Positions 1 to 36,498 of a stretch of 36,498 nucleotides of DNA are shown one piece after another. The notes beneath the pieces are model-generated. The model saw only the letters and a list, made by a program, of their open reading frames with translations. It did no database searches and was not told the origin of the DNA. The position numbers and the translations under genes are program-made. Numbering within the stretch: position 1 is the stretch's first letter; each line of letters starts with the position of its first letter. The stretch is from a virus, in IMG/VR virus record IMGVR_UViG_3300023313_000019, positions 1-36,498 of that record; one strand, written 5' to 3'.

Positions 1-127
1 AAGTGTTGGTATGATTAATTATATTAGCTTTACTTATAATCTATACGACAAAGGTTTATTGAGAAATACCTATTGAGCCAGTACAAGCATATAGTGTAGA
101 TGAAGAATTAGATAAAAATATAGCAGT
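1..127. repeat. Terminal direct repeat, left copy (circularity overlap)
   Basis: This segment is identical, base for base, to 36372-36498. Both copies lie inside one open reading frame (the endolysin), which reads straight through when the ends are joined. The length of 127 matches a common maximum assembly k-mer, so the simplest reading is an assembly overlap of a circular or circularly permuted molecule rather than a biological terminal repeat. Confidence 0.95.
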
Positions 128-11624: not shown

Positions 11625-12809
11625 ATGAAACTTACAGAACAGTTATTATATAACTCAATAGCTTTATACCACATAAATAAAAAAGGTGGAGAAATGTTAA
11701 AAGACTTAAATACAATTTTAAGTAAAGATAAAACAAGTGTATCTGATTTATTACAAATGGATAATGCTAGTTTTATACAAACAAATGCTAATGAAGTACT
11801 AGGTACTACACAAGTTGGTTTTTGACAAGAATTTGTACAACAAACTATTTTATCTTCTGAATTAATTGAAAGATTAAAAGTAGGAGAAAGTTTATTAGTT
11901 GATGCTACAATTAAACTAATGACTAGTAAGTCAATGGACTTCCCAGTTAGAGGTGGAAGATTAAGAATGAGCTTAACTACTGAAAATGTAAATTCTCCAT
12001 TATGAGGAGCTACAGACCAATCACAAGTTAAAAAAGCAGGTACAGTATCAGTAAATCTAACTGCAAAAGAAATGAAAATTACTGTTTACTACTCTGATAC
12101 TTGGTTAGAAGATAGTGTAGTAAGTGTTGCTGAATATGTACTACAAGCTATAACAGAGGCTTACGATAGTTCTATACACGAAATTCTTATTAATGGTGAT
12201 ATAGCTACTTGATTAAATGCTAATATAAATATCATTGATGGAAATACTACTGCTCTTCCAGATGGTGCTAAAACTGATTTACTATTAGCTGATGGTTGAA
12301 GAAAATTAGCTTTCACTACTGGTGCAACTGTTGATGCTTTAGCAAACTTTGTAATATCTAATTTAAGAAGTGCAAGAGCTGCTATGGGTGTGAAATGATT
12401 AAATCCAAAAGACTTAAGAATAGTTCCAGACATAACAACTTATAATTCTCTAATGAATTTAACACAAGTTGAAACAATGGAAAAATTTGGAGATGCTGCT
12501 ACTATAAAGAGCGGTGTACTAGTTGCAATCGATTGAATAAAAATTGTAAATAGAGAAGAAATGACTAAATGTTTAGCTACTGGTAAACAATCTTCTAATC
12601 CTGCATTGAATGTTAAAGGTTCATTATTAGTTATACATACTCCATCTATTCTTGTATGAATAAGAAGAGATTTAACTACTGAAACTTCAAGATATGCTGA
12701 AGACGGTGTAACTGGTATCACTGGTACTGCAAGAATAGCTGTTACTCTTGATAATACTCAAAATAACATTGAACCTACTTCACCAAGTGCATTAGTTATA
12801 AATATTTAA
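11625..12809 (+). CDS. Major capsid protein (HK97 fold)
   Basis: The gene directly follows the protease-scaffold fusion and precedes the connectors, and its 394 residues fit the HK97 family. Typical elements are SMDFPVRGGRLR in the N-arm/E-loop region, KKAGTVSVNLTAKEMKITVY, the spine-helix region WLEDSVVSVAEYVLQA, and GVLVAIDGIKIVNREEM near the C-terminus. The codon usage is distinctive: about 22 GGN glycines against 7 TGA, while most neighbouring genes favour TGA. The leading explanation is selection for efficient decoding in the most abundant protein. Confidence 0.9.
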
Positions 12810-15798: not shown

Positions 15799-15819
15799 TA
15801 TTGTAATAAAAAGAAAATT

Positions 15820-15852
15820 AGATATAATTGTAAAAGATTATATCTTTTTTTT
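15820..15852 (+). terminator. Intrinsic terminator after the tail-tube gene
   Basis: A perfect 9-bp stem AGATATAAT/ATTATATCT (15820-15828 with 15837-15845), loop TGTAAAAG, followed by eight T residues. It would limit read-through from the abundant tube message into the tail-assembly genes. Confidence 0.85.
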
Positions 15853-15858
15853 AAATTT

Positions 15859-16452
15859 ATGAAAAAAACACAATTTCCAACTAAAAGAACTTTTGAACAA
15901 GATTTTTTAAACACAAAATGAAAGACACTTTTTACTTTAAGATATGAACAAGCTACAATATGAGAATATTATGAGTATTTAGCTAAAAGTCCTGAAGCTC
16001 AAACATTAGAACTATTTTCTATTTTAAAAAAACACATCGTATATAATTTAAAAGATAAAATATTTAAGTTTTTTAATAAGAATTATGTATCAAATATAGA
16101 AAAATGATTAAAAGTAGAAGATATTTTAACAAGTATATTAAAAAATAAATATAGAGGGTATGAAAGTATTTTTACAGAAGTAAGAAGATTTAAAGAGAAA
16201 AGATGATGAGGTTCAATTGAAAGTGTTTGATTATCTGCTATTTGTAAAACATATAATATATCTCCTACCGATTTAATGAAAAATTATACCTTAGAGCAAT
16301 ATTTTTGGTTTTTAGATGGTGTAGAATGGATTAATAACTCTATGGATAAAGAATGAGAAGCATTAAATAAAATGGCTATTATCGATAAAAAAGAAGTTAA
16401 AAAAAGAGCTGAAGAAACAAGGAAAGCATTTGAAAAAATAAGAAAGAAATAA
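15859..16452 (+). CDS. Probable tail assembly chaperone, 197 aa
   Basis: A helical protein between the tail-tube and tape-measure genes, the position of gpG-type tail assembly chaperones. It opens MKKTQFPTKRTFEQDF. Later come ICKTYNISPTDLMKNYTLEQ and YFWFLDGVEWINNSMDKEGE, followed by a charged C-terminal helix. A short A-run near the end (16433-16438) could allow a -1 shift but would add only about 17 residues, so the usual long frameshift extension is not evident. Confidence 0.68.
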
Positions 16453-16553
16453 TTTTCACAGGTTTTTCACAGGTTACTATAATAAAGTAGTTAGTTTTCT
16501 TGATAAACTAAGGGAAAAGTAAAGCTGTAAAAAGCTGTAAAAATAATAAACTC
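16453..16553. repeat. Tandem repeats around a hairpin
   Basis: TTTTCACAGG (16453-16462) and TTTTTCACAGG (16463-16473) stand on one side of a 7-bp hairpin TTAGTTT/AAACTAA (16491-16511), and two copies of AGCTGTAAAA (16523-16532, 16533-16542) stand on the other. The two repeat families are near-inverted versions of each other (CACAG against CTGT, flanked by T or A runs). This first part of the long gene-free stretch holds no open frame. It may be a protein-binding site or a large imperfect stem. Confidence 0.55.
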
Positions 16554-16563
16554 AAAAAAAGAT

Positions 16564-16598
16564 TTGTTTATTTGTATTTTTTTATTATAATATGTTTA
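16564..16598 (+). promoter_or_regulatory. Promoter of the kissing-loop RNA
   Basis: TTGTTT (16564-16569), a 16-base spacer and TATAAT (16586-16591) predict a start near 16598. The bases just before, TCAAAAAAAGATTTG, resemble the TCTAAAAAAGTTTTG box of the promoters at 29623, 33308 and 36103. It stands alone in front of a short terminated transcript rather than a protein gene. Confidence 0.6.
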
Positions 16599-16692
16599 CA
16601 TAAAAACTTATATCGTGAGTATAAGTTGTCTGACAACCTATACAAGATATAGTTTTTAGCACCAATTACTCACGATAGTTGGTGTTTTTTTT
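16598..16692 (+). ncRNA. Small RNA with complementary (kissing) loops
   Basis: The predicted 95-nt transcript folds into hairpin 1 (ACTTATA/TATAAGT, 16606-16626) with loop TCGTGAG, two short hairpins (16626-16636; CTATA/TATAG at 16638-16652), and terminal hairpin 4 (CACCAATTA against TAGTTGGTG, 16660-16684) with loop CTCACGA, followed by eight T residues. The two 7-nt loops are exact reverse complements. The complementarity extends to 10 bases (16611-16620 with 16668-16677) if the stems open. No start codon with a useful frame is present. This is a self-contained non-coding RNA, or one half of a loop-loop pairing between two molecules. No known family is recognised. Confidence 0.7.
16660..16692 (+). 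terminator. Terminator of the kissing-loop RNA
   Basis: CACCAA/TTGGTG with a further partly paired TTA/TAG segment closes the CTCACGA loop and is followed directly by TTTTTTTT. It ends the transcript begun near 16598. Confidence 0.85.
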
Positions 16693-17012
16693 ATGCTACT
16701 AGGTATAAACTAGAGGGTATCCCATAAATTAACTTATCTTGAGTGGAATAAGATACTGACAAGAGCATTGAGCAATCAGAAGTCGCAGGCAGATAAGGCT
16801 AGTAAACGAACGATATACGATTATAGCTAGTAAAGTATTGATGTTTTGTAGAAATACAAACAGGCAATAAGTTATTTAAGATAACTGAGTGGTTACGACT
16901 AGTTTCAGTTTTGTCTGACTAGAGTATTTTCTTATAAGGGTTTTGTATTCTAGGCAGGCTTATAACTAGACACTCACTCAACCGATTATATCTTTTAACT
17001 AATTACTAAAAT
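16693..17012 (+). other. Gene-free, structured, CTAG-rich stretch
   Basis: No frame of useful length is open on either strand with TAA and TAG as stops. The sequence is visibly richer in G and C than its surroundings and contains several stems. These include TATCTT/AAGATA around GAGTGGAAT, AGTTAT/ATAACT around TTAAG followed again by GAGTGG, CTAGT..CAG/CTG..ACTAG, and TTATAAG/CTTATAA near the 3' end. CTAG occurs eight times in about 300 bases. GCTAGTAAA occurs twice. It may be a large structured RNA or a cis-acting DNA site; I do not recognise it as a known RNA class or as a tRNA. Confidence 0.5.
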
Positions 17013-17237
17013 ATGAAAGAATTATATAAATGATATATTAAATATATAAATGATAAATGATTAAAAAATAAAGTAATTGAAATCAAAGATAATACAAAAT
17101 GGAAGATAAGTAAGAAATGAAAGAAATATGCTAAATATGATAACTGATTAAATTTAATATTATTATTTGAAAATGATTATGTTATGATACAAGAAAGAGA
17201 AAAATATATGAAAGAAAAATGAGATTTAAGTTTTTAA
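17013..17237 (+). CDS. Small basic hypothetical protein before the tape measure, 74 aa
   Basis: The product begins MKELYKGYIKYINDKGLKNK and is rich in Lys and Tyr; all glycines are TGA. Its place between the probable chaperone and the tape measure is that of the second tail-assembly-chaperone frame in many siphophages, but here it is separated from the first by 560 bases and could not be joined by simple frameshifting. Confidence 0.65.
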
Positions 17238-17300: not shown

Positions 17301-19883
17301 ATGTCTGTTGAAAAAATACAAGCACAAATTATAGCAGAAGTTGATGACGCAAGTTTCCAAAGAGCAGGAGATAAAACAAAAGCATTTGCTAGAGATACTT
17401 GAAAAGAATTAGATAAGAGTATGTTATTTAAACTTCAATTAGATAAAGCAAATACTAAAATTCAATTAGATAATGCAAGGAAATTATTAAGACAAGCAAA
17501 AAAAGATTGAGATAAGGCATTAGAGTTAAAAATGACTTTAAAAACTCAAGCACTTCAAAGTAAATTAACAGAAGCAGGAAGAAAATTAAATAATTTTGTA
17601 AATACTGGTAATAAGAAATTATCAAGATTATGAAAACATTTTGAGAGTTTAAAGACAAATGTATGAGGATTAATAGGTAAATTATGACTAGTTGCTGTTG
17701 CTATGTGAGCTTTTAAGGCTTGAAGTTCTGCTATTGAGCTATGAGATAGACTAGAACAAGCTACAATTAGTTTTACTACTATGTTATGAAGTGCAAAGGA
17801 AGCTAAATCACTATTGCAAGATTTAGCTATTTTTGCTAGTAATACTCCTTTTGAGTTACTTTGATTGAGGGATACAGCAAAACAATTAATTGCTTTCTGA
17901 ATAGAAAATAAAAATATAATACCTACATTAAAGGCATTATGAGATGTTTCAGCTTGATTATCAGTACCTATTGAACAAGTAGCTTATGCTTATGGACAAG
18001 TAAAGGTTGCAGGTAGATTAATGGGGCAAGAATTAATGCAATTCACAAATGCAGGTGTCCCTCTTATTGCTGAATTATCAAAAAATCTTTGAGTAGCACA
18101 AAAGGATATTAAAAAAATGGTATCACAAGGTAAAATATGATTTGCAGATGTTCAACAAGCATTTAAAACAATGTCTAGTGAATGATGAAAATTTGCAAAT
18201 ATGATGGATAAACAAACTGAAACTTTAACCTGAAAATGGAGTAATCTACAAGATACAGCTGATATGATGCTGGAAAAAATAGGTACAGCTTTATTGCCTT
18301 TTGCTAAAAAAGCTGTTGATGCTATGGCTTTTGCTTTAGATTGGTTTGGAAAAATAATTTTATGATTAAGGTGAGTTTATGAATTAATGGTTTCTTGAAT
18401 AGTTCAAAGTATTTTTCATATTCAAAAGGCTTGGAATACTGTTATTACTAATGTACAAATACTATTTAATGGTTTTATCTGAACTTTTAGAGATTTTTGA
18501 GTAAATGTAGGTATTTTTGTTAGAAATACTGGTAAGGTGTTTTTATCTTTGCCACACTATATAGGTGTTGCACTTGATAAATGAATAACACAAATAGAAA
18601 GTTTCTTAAATAAAGCTAGTAATTGAATTAATGCTTTTGCTAAAAAACTATGATTTAAGTGAGATTTAGCTTGAAAAGTTAAATTAGGAAGAATATCTAG
18701 TGAAGATTGAGCTCCTACACTAGAAAAATTTAAAGATATAAATAGAAAAGCAGCAGCTTTAAAGAATTTAGAATTATTAAGAGAAAAAAAAGAGTATGAT
18801 AAAAGTAGAAATGATTTATTATCATCTGAAAAAAATAGATTAAGTAAAGAATTAATTGAGTTATGAAAAGCTAACGGAGTAGCAAAGAAACTTAATACAG
18901 AGATGATTATTAATAGAAATAATGCTACTAAATCAGTAAGTGAAACTCAAAAAGCAGCAGCAAAAGCTAAAAAAGAAGCAGATAAAGCAGAAATAGCTAG
19001 AATTAAAAAATATAATAAATATCTTGATGAAAAATCTAAAAAAGAAGAAAATAGAATTAAATCTATTGAAAAATGAAAAAGTCTAGTCAAATCTTTTTAT
19101 AATAATATAAATAGTGAGATAGATAAATCATCTGCTAAAATAGATAAGTTTAATACTTCTATTGAATGAAGTATGAATAAAATTAAAGATTTACAAAATG
19201 CTTTAGCAAATAATAAAAATGATACTGGAGTTGCATTGTTTCAAAGAAAATTAGATTTAGAAAAACAAATTAGAGATTTAGAGGATAGTAATAGATGAAT
19301 AGGTGTTACGGCTTGAAGATTTAAAAAAAGTACCTTACAACAGATTTGAACAGGTACTATTTGATGAATTAGTTGAAATGATTTATTAGCTTATAAAAAA
19401 TTAGTTGAAGAAAAGCAATTAATAGACCAAAATGCTAATCTAATTAGTGAAGAAAATAAAAAAGTAGCACAACAAAATGATACTGAAAAACTACTTGCAG
19501 AATTTACAGCAAAACAAGAAAAAATACAACAAGATATAAAAGATGAGCAAGATAAATTAAAAAGAACAGAAGAAAACAAGAATAAAGAGCAAGAAATATT
19601 AGCTCAATTAAATGAATATAGAACAAATCTAGAAACTACTTATACTAGTGTAGTGCAGGCAGAAGTACAAAAAAGAATATGAATATTAGAAAAAATGAGG
19701 CAAAAAGCTATTGAAACTGCAAATGCAATGGCTAAGGCTTGAATAACAACAAACCATAATACAACAAATAATAATGTAAATGTAAATCTAAAAGGTACTT
19801 GATTTAGTAATGTAGATGCACAAAATATAGGTAATACTTTAGTTCCACACTTAAATAATGCTGCTAAGTGAATAAATAATTAA
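17301..19883 (+). CDS. Tape measure protein
   Basis: This is the longest gene (860 residues), 47 bases past the tail-chaperone region. An N-terminal coiled coil leads to a hydrophobic GLIGKLGLVAVAMGAFKAG near residue 125. The conserved tape-measure domain follows, including FASNTPFELLGLRDTAKQL, GRLMGQELMQFTNAGVPLIA, KKMVSQGKIGFADVQQAFKT and the closing ETLTGKWSNLQD. A second hydrophobic region lies near residues 340-430. The rest is charged coiled coil, ending NVNVNLKGTGFSNVD. The protein fills the tube lumen, sets tail length and is ejected with the DNA. Most glycines are TGA. Confidence 0.93.
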
Positions 19884-21805: not shown

Positions 21806-23398
21806 ATGGTTTATACTAAAAAAAATAGTGAAAATAATGCAGAATGTGGATTATCTATTGCTTTAACTACTTCTAGTTTAGTAATGTTTGCAAGTGGTAA
21901 TTTTGATAGATTTTCTACTTCAGATTTTGTTGTTGAGGTATCAACTTTTGACAGTGCAGGAAATGTTACTGCTAGAGAGAATATGTTTATTACTTCTAGA
22001 AGCTGAAATCAATTCAATATATGAACTAGGGCTTATGAGGCAGTGCCTATTGATGATACACAAACTACAAATATTCAACAAGCACTTGCTTTTTGAACTA
22101 CTAATACAGTAATAAAACAAGTTATTTCTAAAATTCTACTTGATGAAATACAAGATGAATTAATTAATCTTTGAAAATGACAATCAGTCTATTCTGCTTC
22201 ATCTACTTGAAATGATAGTTATTCAATAACAATTCCAAATATAACAAATTATATTGATTGAGAAATATTTAGATTTAAAGCAGATGTAGCAAATATATGA
22301 CCTGCTACTTTAAATGTAAATGGTATGTGAGCAATTCCATTAAAAAAATTACAATGAACAGTTGATTTAGATGATAACGATGTACAGGCAAATTGAATAG
22401 TTACAGCAGTTTATAATTCTACTTGACCAGTTTTCCAGTTTACTTGACAGAATTGAGCTTTGCCTGTATTATGATGAGTTTCATTATATTGAAATTGAAA
22501 CTTATGAGCATTGGTGGTTAGTTGAACAACAAATATTAATACTAATACTATATATCAGTATACTGATTTAACTATTAATAATTGAGCATTCTTAAAATCA
22601 TTATCTACTAGTTGAAATATTTATATTAAAGTTGCTTGAATATTAACTGTAAATTGAGTAATAGATATGTCTTGAATTAATTGAAGTTCTGTATTTCAAA
22701 ATTCACTTGGATTATCTTGACAATTTTGAACTCATTGAAGTTGATGAGCTTGAGCAAATGGGTGAGCTTGAGCTTATTGATGAGCTTGATGAGCTTGATG
22801 AGCTTGAAGTGCTTTATGATATGGTTGATGAGGTTGATGATGAGGTGGACAATGAGCTTGATGAGCAGGGTGAATAGGTTGAACTCCTTGATGAATTTGA
22901 TGAGCTTGATGAGCTCCATCGTGAACTTGAACTGGTTGAGGTATTTCTGCTTGATGAGGTTGATGAGGTTGAGCTAATTTTGGGTGATGATGATGGAACC
23001 CTTGAGTGGCTTGATGAAATGCTTATTGAAATGCTTGAGCAAATGCTTTAGTAACATCTATTTGAACTTGAGGTTGAGCAGGGTGATTACCATCTACTTC
23101 TAGTCCATTAATTTATATAGAAGCTAAAACTATTGTATGAAATTGACAGATTATAGCTAATTGATGAGCTTGATGAGCAGGGTGATTATGATGAGCAGTT
23201 TTTAGTCTAAATTGACAATGATGAGCTGGTTGAGGTTGATGATGAGCTGGTTGAGGTTCTGTGATTATGATAAATAATGTAAATAATTTCACTTGAAGCA
23301 TAAGTGTAGCTTGATGAGCAGGGTGAACTTGATGAAATCCTTGATGAGCTTGAACAAGTTGAACTACACAATTGTTATTAGACTCTAATTTATTATAA
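21806..23398 (+). CDS. Glycine-rich tail fibre/adhesin
   Basis: The 530-residue protein has about 286 residues of ordinary beta-rich fibre sequence, with a C-terminal part of that region reading SLSTSGNIYIKVAGILTVNG. From about residue 290 to the end it is extremely rich in glycine (GAGGAGGAGSALGYGGGGGG and similar runs mixed with Ala, Asn, Pro, Thr). Roughly 105 codons are TGA and about 20 are GGN, so under the standard code nothing but fragments would remain. Glycine-rich domains of this sort form packed polyglycine helices in phage receptor-binding adhesins, the likely role here at the tail tip. Frame is unbroken to TAA. Confidence 0.85.
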
Positions 23399-29381: not shown

Positions 29382-29402
29382 GTGAAGTTTGTGTGAGGTT
29401 TC

Positions 29403-29437
29403 TTTACAATGGTATAATTTAATATATAATAAAAGTA
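29403..29437 (+). promoter_or_regulatory. Promoter of a short transcript
   Basis: TTTACA (29403-29408), 16-base spacer and TATAAT (29425-29430) predict a start near 29437. It lies immediately after the late terminator and reads into a short terminated unit ending at 29593. It lacks the A-tract repeats of the next promoter. Confidence 0.6.
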
Positions 29438-29453
29438 TCTTAACTAAGATATT

Positions 29454-29546
29454 ATGAAACATAGAAAACATAGCTCAATAAAGGCGAGTACAAAAGTTGT
29501 ACAATATGAGAAAATAAACAGAATTCAGTTGCTAAGACAACTATAA
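29454..29546 (+). CDS. Very small basic peptide, 30 aa (tentative)
   Basis: A frame reading MKHRKHSSIKASTKVVQYEK then INRIQLLRQL ends with TAA. It has the ATTATG start context used across this genome, and a short hairpin (ATCTTA/TAAGAT, 29437-29450) sits just upstream of it. It is the only frame in a transcript with its own promoter and terminator. No TGA is present. It could equally be a chance frame in a small RNA. Confidence 0.45.
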   Translation: MKHRKHSSIKASTKVVQYEKINRIQLLRQL

Positions 29547-29565
29547 AAATCATTAAAATATAATT

Positions 29566-29593
29566 AGTGTCTATTTTTTAGGCACTTTTTTTT
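29566..29593 (+). terminator. Intrinsic terminator of the 29437 transcript
   Basis: AGTGTCTA/TAGGCACT (29566-29573 with 29579-29586, one G-T pair) closes a five-T loop and is followed by eight T residues. It separates this short unit from the promoter at 29623. Confidence 0.85.
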
Positions 29594-29622
29594 CTTTTAA
29601 AATAAAGGTTTTTTAATGGTTA

Positions 29623-30827: not shown

Positions 30828-30862
30828 TTGCTTAATAAGAAAAAATTAATATAATACTAAAG
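30828..30862 (+). promoter_or_regulatory. Promoter of the replisome-organiser operon
   Basis: TTGCTT (30828-30833), 16-base spacer, TATAAT (30850-30855), preceded by TTTTAAAAAAAG, the single-copy form of the A-tract box seen at P1-P3. The start near 30862 coincides with the first pairing segment of the leader RNA. Confidence 0.75.
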
Positions 30863-30949
30863 ACTAAGAGATTAAATGTTCGACAAATTTATTTAAAAAC
30901 TCGTTTTTGCAGGTTCTCTTAGTCGAACAGCCTGCAGGGACGAGTTTTT
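30862..30949 (+). ncRNA. Leader RNA: terminator hairpin with alternative upstream pairings
   Basis: The outer stem AAAAACTCGT/ACGAGTTTTT (30895-30904 with 30940-30949) encloses TGCAGG/CCTGCA (30908-30913 with 30931-30936) and a 17-base loop. The outer stem ends in five T, as a terminator would. Loop bases TCTCTTAGTC (30915-30924) exactly complement GACTAAGAGA at the 5' end of the transcript (30862-30871). Overlapping loop bases GTCGAACA (30922-30929) exactly complement TGTTCGAC (30877-30884). The two loop pairings share three bases and exclude each other, as in a switch. The replisome-organiser gene starts at 30964, so it would be controlled by attenuation. Confidence 0.7.
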
Positions 30950-30963
30950 AACTATTTAAAATT

Positions 30964-31656
30964 ATGAAGAAAACATTTATATTCTATAATGATTGGATAG
31001 ATTATACCGAAGAAATGACATTAGAAGAAAAAGGGTTATTTCTTGAAAGTATACTACTATTTCAACAATGAAAGGAAATCAAAAAAGATTTATGAGGTAT
31101 TAAATTTATCTGGAGTAGAGTTAAAAAACAACTTGAAGATGATAATTATAAATGGAAAAACGAGATAGAGAAGCGAAAAAAAGCAGGTAAACTATGATGA
31201 TTAGCAAAAGCTAGCAAATGAAAGCAAGTGCTAGCAAGTGCTAGCAAGTGAAAGCAACTACTAGCTGATAATGTAAATGTAAATGTAAATGATAATGTAA
31301 ATAATGTTAATAATATATCTAAAGATATAGAGCAAAGCTCTAAAATAATAAAAAAAGATAACAGAGTTTTAGAAATTGATTTAATAATAGAAACATTAAA
31401 AGAATTAAACTGATGAATTATAGATGATAAAGTGCAAGCTCAAAGAAGATATTGAAAACATATAAAAACAAAGTTAGATAAAATGAGTTGATTTAATTGA
31501 GATTATGTTTGATTTATTAAATATATTTATAAAAATTCAGATGAATATAGAAAACAATATTTTAGGAGTGCAGAAAAGTTTTATTATAATATAGCTTGAA
31601 TAATAGCTTGAATAAAAACAAATATGAAGACAAAAATAAAAACAGTATCAATTTAA
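30964..31656 (+). CDS. Replisome organiser / replication initiation protein
   Basis: The N-terminal domain reads KKTFIFYNDWIDYTEEMTLE, then EKGLFLESILLFQQGKEI, typical of phage replication proteins with a DnaD-like or DUF6291-type head that acts on a dimeric winged-helix fold. A low-complexity linker follows (GKLGGLAKASKGKQVLASAS; DNVNVNVNDNVNN), then a C-terminal helical domain (QRRYGKHIKTKLDKMSGFNG; GFIKYIYKNSDEYRKQYF) of a DNA-binding type. The linker DNA carries iterons that may be the origin. The gene has its own promoter and switch-like leader. It should open the origin and load the host helicase. Confidence 0.75.
31211..31320 (+). other. Candidate replication origin (iterons plus AT-rich tract)
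   Basis: Five 10-base units in register, CTAGCAAATG, AAAGCAAGTG, CTAGCAAGTG (twice) and AAAGCAACTA (31211-31260), fit (CT or AA)AGCAARTG. Next come three copies of ATGTAA and then an almost pure AT stretch to about 31320. Iterons inside the initiator gene, next to an AT-rich unwinding region, are the arrangement known from lambda O and lactococcal phage origins. The period of 10 is not a multiple of 3, so the repeat does not simply reflect a repeated peptide. Confidence 0.6.
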
Positions 31657-36202: not shown

Positions 36203-36498
36203 ATGAAAACTATAAAAGTTACTAAATGAGTTCTTTCAGATAAAGAGAGAGCAAAAATAAGAAAAAGTAAATATACTATTGATTTAGCTTGACCTACTTT
36301 TAAAGAAAGAGTAAAAGCTAGAAAAAGTATTAGAATAAAAAAATTAACAGATAGTTTATGGTTAGAAGTTAAAGTGTTGGTATGATTAATTATATTAGCT
36401 TTACTTATAATCTATACGACAAAGGTTTATTGAGAAATACCTATTGAGCCAGTACAAGCATATAGTGTAGATGAAGAATTAGATAAAAATATAGCAGT
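36203..36498 (+). CDS. GH24 phage lysozyme (endolysin), N-terminal part
   Basis: This is the first part of the gene that continues from base 128 when the circle is closed. The first 52 residues are strongly basic (LSDKERAKIRKSKYTIDLAG; FKERVKARKSIRIKK, with a twice-used K.R.K.RKS pattern) and should stay in the cytoplasm. The transmembrane segment follows, then a short acidic linker. There is no signal-peptidase-type site after the hydrophobic segment, so the protein should remain anchored until released. Three TGA glycines lie upstream of the enzyme domain. It is the first gene behind P3. Confidence 0.92.
36372..36498. repeat. Terminal direct repeat, right copy (circularity overlap)
   Basis: Identical to 1-127. 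Removing one copy leaves a 36,371-bp circle with an unbroken endolysin frame. Confidence 0.95.

Follow-up and report, generated by a model that had tools for sequence, protein, structure and literature searches.

A recurrent candidate small RNA with phage-specific complementary hairpin loops in phages that use genetic code 25

Introduction

The pRNA of phage phi29 is a single RNA with two complementary loops that are able to pair between molecules. Pairing is also central to the immunity conferred by the CI RNA of the satellite phage P4, whose targets, seqA and seqC, are part of the replication operon's leader (PMC4825925). Antisense attenuators have been described in the plasmids pT181 and pIP501 (PMC4878617; PMC6562991). 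Absconditabacteria and Gracilibacteria use genetic code 25 (PMC10746230); in the literature that we searched there was no regulatory RNA from a phage with this code.

Here we describe a locus that, as in pRNA, combines two complementary loops in one putative RNA. It lies in a 36,498-nt stretch of viral DNA (IMG/VR record IMGVR_UViG_3300023313_000019), which we call the window. The window has an exact terminal repeat of 127 nt (1–127 = 36372–36498), and because its end repeats its own first 127 nt we take the record to be a complete circular genome. Its genes, essentially all of which are on the + strand, are fully open only when TGA is decoded as an amino acid. The terminase motifs PRGHGKTT and GVDPA identify this amino acid as glycine and therefore the code as NCBI code 25. 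One 530-aa ORF (21806–23398) has 105 TGA codons read as glycine and encodes a very glycine-rich, tail-fibre-like protein.

Results

The predicted RNA is ~95 nt long (16598–16692, + strand; read from the sequence, fold z = –5.3) and sits within a 560-nt non-coding gap of the tail operon. Its promoter, TTGTTT-16-TATAAT (16564–16591, + strand), has the 16-nt spacing seen in most of the related phages described below. Hairpin 1 (16605–16627, + strand; AACTTATA-TCGTGAG-TATAAGTT in DNA and AACUUAUA-UCGUGAG-UAUAAGUU in RNA) has eight perfect pairs that close loop 1, UCGUGAG (16613–16619). The RNA ends in an intrinsic terminator (16660–16692, + strand; CACCAATTA-CTCACGA-TAGTTGGTG in DNA and CACCAAUUA-CUCACGA-UAGUUGGUG plus U8 in RNA), the hairpin of which (16660–16684) has nine perfect pairs, one of them G-U, and is followed by T8. 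Loop 2, CUCACGA (16669–16675), is the exact complement of loop 1 and has a YUNR motif (CUCA) inside it. This terminator is the sole terminator-like site between 15800 and 17400, a region for which shuffles give 0.1.

A first-pass annotation of this DNA had proposed a discrete promoter–hairpin–terminator RNA in the tail operon. All of its elements are present where it places them, and from the sequence we infer that it is transcribed. The same annotation had the loop complementarity extending from seven to ten nucleotides; the 7-nt complement is exact and the extension reaches 11 nt, as an exact inverted repeat with arms TATCGTGAGTA (16611–16621) and TACTCACGATA (16667–16677). The promoter that it named has a perfect –10 (TATAAT, 16586–16591) and a weak –35, and a stronger promoter-like site (TTCACA-17-TATAAT, 11/12; 16455–16483, + strand) was found by promoter scan ~110 nt upstream, so that a ~200-nt form of the RNA is possible; these scans used an E. 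coli-like consensus, which may not be that of the host RNA polymerase. Both stems stand as perfect hairpins in the sequence, but when the full-length RNA is folded, the minimum-energy structure has, in place of hairpin 1, a competing long hairpin of 58 nt (16601–16658), which half-buries loop 1.

The gene upstream of the RNA (15859–16452, + strand, code 25) is probably tail-assembly-chaperone-like, judging from its position and from comparison with L002. The first gene 3' of the RNA, ~320 nt past the terminator, is a 74-aa ORF (17013–17237, + strand) for which a family search gave no match, and the tape measure gene follows (17301–19883, + strand; phrog_9959, E 4e-80). Several other features of the window were noted. 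Between the major-tail-protein-like and chaperone-like genes, an AT-only perfect hairpin, AGATATAAT...ATTATATCT, is followed by TTTTTTT (15812–15852) and is likely an A/U terminator overlooked by GC-based scans. At 16453–16540, a tandem TTTTCACAGGT (two copies) and a tandem AAAGCTGTAA (two copies) form an approximate inverted repeat, beyond which the sequence becomes very AT-rich; these may be protein-binding sites or an origin. GC skew around 16453–16600, examined for a replication origin, was uninformative because the genes are all on one strand. The 320 nt at 16693–17012 have no ORF, eight CTAG sites and a GC content of 30–39% against ~25% for the genome, and a search for a structured RNA there gave a fold that did not surpass those of shuffles (z = –0.4). 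A further promoter–terminator unit separates the peptidase gene from the early genes (29389–29594; promoter TTTACA-16-TATAAT, several small hairpins, terminator 29566–29586), in which loop complementarity is absent.

A dinucleotide-shuffled genome is expected to yield 0.15 cases of two hairpins that lie within 150 nt and have stems of at least 7 pairs and a kissing complement of at least 7 nt; 16598 is the only such locus in the window. With a terminator required as the second hairpin there were no matches in 2.2 Mb of shuffled sequence. Rfam searches of the region at gathering level and in a relaxed scan returned no meaningful match, and no DNA homologue of the RNA was found in phage records. 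A pattern of both loops had 10 matches among viral contigs, all of them unrelated sequences on inspection. Scans of genome contigs for the RNA found none, a tRNA-Gly(UCA) pattern for host genomes had no match, and scans with the major tail protein and tape measure found no relative with the same tail module.

We gathered related code-25 phages by terminase alignments, and more by a C1-peptidase-like gene. Six of these carry one RNA each with the same architecture and unrelated sequence, consisting of a promoter, mostly TTGC(TT/AA)-16-TATAAT, hairpin 1 and a terminator hairpin, with loops complementary over 6–10 nt (fold z between –3.6 and –8.3). In G001 (L034:9405–9525) the terminator loop CCCCUCAGACU includes CCCCUC, which is complementary over 6 nt to the GAGGGG in the loop that caps a 24-bp hairpin; this element was first picked by a promoter and terminator scan that was blind to loops. 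The G002 element (L036:8708–8790) has a 13-bp hairpin with loop AUCUCAGACA and then a terminator with loop UUGUCUGAGA, giving a 10-nt complement. The loop pairs are GUUGUGA/UCACAAC in G006 (L048:9688–9824), CAACACCU/AGGUGUUG in G007 (L063:3289–3416), GUGGUCUAG/CUAGACCAC in G008 (L050:4639–4725) and AUCCCCCGA/UCGGGGGAU in G010 (L062:1869–1948). Together with the window, seven phages thus have a complement of at least 6 nt in both apical loops along with the promoter, hairpin 1 and terminator hairpin. None of the relatives' elements had a gathering-level match in Rfam. Pairwise identity among the first five RNAs was about that of shuffled sequences, which places the conservation in architecture and pairing rather than in sequence; the elements are accordingly grouped by these two properties and not by descent from one ancestor. 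A loop match kept with wholly different letters in each phage looks, from the sequences, like a selected lock and key. A YUNR motif is present in the terminator loop of six of the seven elements. Since this motif is a feature of fast antisense loops (PMC6562991), its presence gives mild support to loop recognition.

The contiguous loop complements in the seven elements are 9, 6, 10, 7, 8, 9 and 9 nt, compared with an off-diagonal mean of 2.95. When each loop 1 was set against each loop 2, the matched assignment was uniquely the best of 5,040, above all 5,039 mismatched ones; this permutation test is not fully blind because several members had been found via complementarity. For that reason we ran a blind promoter–terminator scan of twelve records (TTG-15..18-TATA(A/C)T, then a terminator within 40–150 nt). 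It returned 14 units. In seven of them, one per phage, an upstream hairpin of at least 10 pairs contains a loop complement of at least 6 nt; among the five units that shuffles gave, none has such a complement. Taken alone, G001 is weak by complement length (p 0.05–0.14).

Such a locus might be a coincidence, no more than an ordinary terminator with an AT-rich hairpin in front of it, given an AT-rich genome with many hairpins and the ~12 cases per shuffled genome that a looser cut-off (stem and kiss of at least 6) yields. Strict criteria contradict this, with one convincing element per genome in the seven related phages, against none when 2.5 Mb of shuffled sequence was scanned and a single GC-rich match in 0.56 Mb of unrelated viral DNA, and we find coincidence scarcely credible. 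It is also highly improbable that the inverted repeats act at the DNA level, as operators or as sites of recombination, and that the RNA hairpins are incidental. The 11-bp inverted repeat does exist in the DNA and a tandem/inverted set, CACAGGTTTTTCACAGG ... GCTGTAAAAAGCTGTAAAAA, lies upstream of the RNA, but in 7/7 phages the repeats are in the apical loops of two hairpins, the second of which is a terminator on the transcribed strand, directly after a promoter, and a DNA site has no need of such a placement.

The strict scan had two further matches in related phages, the G002 MTP-TAC hairpin (opposite strand) and a weaker one in G006 (L056 minus strand, 12576–12634; 9 nt, TGCCAATTT, upstream stem 7). 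GC-rich terminator hairpins follow the major tail protein gene in G002 (L014:10536–10596) and G003 (L002:11093–11202), and their loops (TGCTTGTT and TTGTTTGTTT) complement sequence just before the next ATG (AACAAGCAAAACATG and AAACAAACAACTATG); where the two phages differ here, the changes compensate each other. These are candidates for a loop-to-start-codon pseudoknot. A further small RNA was seen at L038:5386–5455 and in the near-identical L040 (~728–798), with a hairpin GAAAATTA...TAATTTTC, a terminator and, in L038, the promoter TTGCTT-16-TATAAT. Between these contigs the stem is kept and the apical loop of hairpin 1 is entirely replaced, making it hypervariable. Its two hairpins lack loop complementarity, and it could be a member that has diverged and has an external target, or else an RNA of another kind. 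An apparent kissing pair at this locus was discarded because one loop falls in the promoter, 5' of the transcription start.

We folded the window RNA at successive 3' ends. In these folds, which are thermodynamic predictions and not kinetics, hairpin 1 predominates when the 3' end is between 16627 and ~16640, and the predicted order is hairpin 1, the long hairpin, a loop1:loop2 helix (best at 3' ends 16675–16679), and finally the long hairpin plus terminator. Given the predicted burial of loop 1 in the full-length RNA, loop 1 may be accessible only while the RNA is nascent. The helix at 3' ends 16675–16679 speaks for a reading in which loop1:loop2 pairing (9–11 bp) is a transient antiterminator in cis, formed once loop 2 exits the polymerase and competing with the terminator. 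Also in its favour, the helix is the minimum-energy fold of a transcript ending just past loop 2 in four of the seven elements (window, G002, G008, G010). In the other three (G001, G006, G007) hairpin 1 has 21–24 bp and stays closed, so that the helix cannot form in this way and alternation between terminator and antiterminator is possible in 4/7 elements only. In addition, the complementarity stops at the loops, whereas classic antiterminators extend through the 5' arm of the terminator. We therefore think it unlikely that the elements are cis attenuator switches, and equally so that a ligand, a protein or pausing decides the outcome and makes pairing in trans needless.

Linker lengths bear on whether the two loops pair within one molecule. 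A straight kissing complex with intact stems would span 90–126 Å in G001, G002 and G010, against linkers of 7–11 nt (42–66 Å); the complex length is a rough estimate with which partly melted cis forms remain compatible. The short linkers in these three phages probably favour pairing between two copies, and by geometric estimate two molecules facing each other could form both kisses without strain. A stiff coaxial kissing complex in cis, considered as a general model, was rejected on linker length. The first-pass annotation had raised an intramolecular pseudoknot that could protect the RNA, and a stable kissing pseudoknot of this kind could also build a fixed, riboswitch-like aptamer fold. The loops are exactly complementary and the 32-nt linker of the window RNA could bridge a 24-bp rod. 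By the same rough estimate the linkers in three relatives could not bridge theirs, and a conserved ligand core and an Rfam match are both absent, which makes this very unlikely. Its other suggestion, a switch or a dimerising RNA, fares better in that a trans or dimer role, or a transient antiterminator, is likelier than a static protective pseudoknot. We found no support for a decoy or antisense RNA to another mRNA, the loops having no other 8-mer match in the phage genome, or for a packaging RNA, the relatives' RNAs adjoining replication and not packaging genes.

In six phages the terminator is ~15–50 nt from the ATG of the next gene. This gap leaves no room for a promoter, so the genes need readthrough of the terminator or of upstream transcription. 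The following gene is a replisome organizer in G006 and an HNH endonuclease in G010; in G002 a replication initiation gene comes second, behind a 73-aa ORF. In G008 it is a Rha-like antirepressor ORF (weak match), in G001 a gene that is probably early and is truncated at the contig end, and in G007 an unnamed 164-aa gene with no match in a family search. The window copy at 16598 alone lies in a tail operon and ~320 nt before the next ORF, and a leader role is therefore weaker for it than for the relatives.

The window has a second element of the same principle (30862–30955, + strand; p 0.003, fold z –6.1) just 5' of the gene at 30964, with a promoter, TTGCTT-16-TATAAT (30828–30855, + strand; read from the sequence), of the type found in the relatives. 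Its 5' end, GACUAAGAGA, is complementary (10/10) to the apical loop UCUCUUAGUC (30915–30924), which crowns a long terminator-like hairpin; the 5' partner is predicted to be single-stranded and the 5' end is itself a prediction. The gene at 30964 (DUF6291) matches phrog_19415, as does the C-terminus of the replisome organizer in G006, and it is probably a replication gene. Unlike the copy in the tail operon, this one occupies the usual leader position of the element type.

With 8-mers, four of the five genomes tested, including the window, have no other match to the loops, and G007 has one extra site. Searches of the window and G002 for antisense duplex partners in their own genomes found none better than shuffles. 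From these two results the likeliest partner is the same RNA. They also weigh against a free-standing trans sRNA, the loops or loop–loop homodimer of which would target a protein or a second RNA, of the phage or of the host (as a sponge, decoy or anti-defence RNA). Such an RNA would fit the elements' own promoter and terminator, their varied positions (in the tail operon, 3' of a peptidase gene or of RusA, or 5' of an HNH gene) and the hypervariable loop of the L038/L040 RNA. Against it, no above-chance partner was found in the phage genomes tested, most members directly precede replication or early genes, and unrelated sequences would each require their own target. We judge this role improbable, and the same holds for the version in which loop pairing merely stabilises or stores the RNA.

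Discussion

The best explanation, which we put forward tentatively, is an RNA-only leader attenuator that is autonomously transcribed and has phage-specific loop–loop self-recognition. Sequence, architecture, recurrence, pairing specificity and gene context are seen directly in the data. The mechanism that we infer involves transcription, termination, pairing in the cell and an effect on the next genes. Code-25 phages would have a family of RNAs of ~80–140 nt, autonomously transcribed and self-terminating, each comprising a promoter of its own, a hairpin at the 5' end and, past a short linker, an intrinsic terminator. Within each RNA the two apical loops are exactly complementary, and no two phages share their loop sequences. 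By default, the leader RNA would terminate before the following operon. The released RNA would then recognise its own copies, loop 2 of one pairing with loop 1 of another, whether nascent or released. In members with a short hairpin 1, including the window RNA, loop 1 and loop 2 may also pair briefly in cis before the terminator closes. The outcome would be a phage-specific, dosage-dependent control of downstream genes. The window copy at 16598 may tune transcription on the tape-measure side or act solely in trans.

It is possible, if doubtful, that the elements form an RNA-only self-recognition class, for immunity or copy-counting, in phages of code-25 bacteria, in which one short transcript would bear both halves of a phage-specific kissing pair, and each phage would recognise no RNA but its own and shut its own early or late operon. 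If so, the loop sequences might diversify like immunity types, a suggestion that we hold no more strongly. A recurrent RNA with natural orthogonal kissing pairs, found mostly before replication or early regulatory genes, would mean that RNA pairing serves where others use repressor proteins, and the elements would provide ready-made orthogonal kissing-loop pairs. The combination of promoter, terminator and complementary loops would be a simple route to functional RNAs that share no sequence.

The known systems resemble these elements to different degrees. Purine and other kissing-loop riboswitches also have two pairing hairpin loops upstream of a terminator. The code-25 elements differ from them in having no three-way junction, conserved core or Rfam match, and in loops that are fully Watson-Crick and different in each phage. 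Compared with phi29 pRNA, the code-25 RNA is about half as large and has a terminator at its end; it is not near packaging genes and has no Rfam match. The likeness to the pT181 and pIP501 attenuators includes a leader before a replication gene, an intrinsic terminator, recognition by loop–loop kissing, orthogonal loop pairs and the common YUNR motif. In those plasmids the partner is a separate antisense RNA transcribed from the other strand, whereas each code-25 element carries the partner loop itself; a consensus scan listed no minus-strand promoter-like sites in window 16571–17020.

As in P4, a small untranslated phage RNA is involved, and pairing inside a leader transcript would govern premature termination before replication genes. 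A P4-like leader position before replication genes is found in G002, in G006 and, if the gene at 30964 is a replication gene, in the second window element, but not at 16598. The CI RNA arises by processing of the leader, and its target sites are separate, with copies of seqA and seqC flanking it; the RNAs here are self-terminating, hold just one complementary pair each, and present both partners as hairpin loops. What the CI RNA has in common with all seven elements is complementarity to a site in its own leader transcript, provided here by loop 1 and loop 2.
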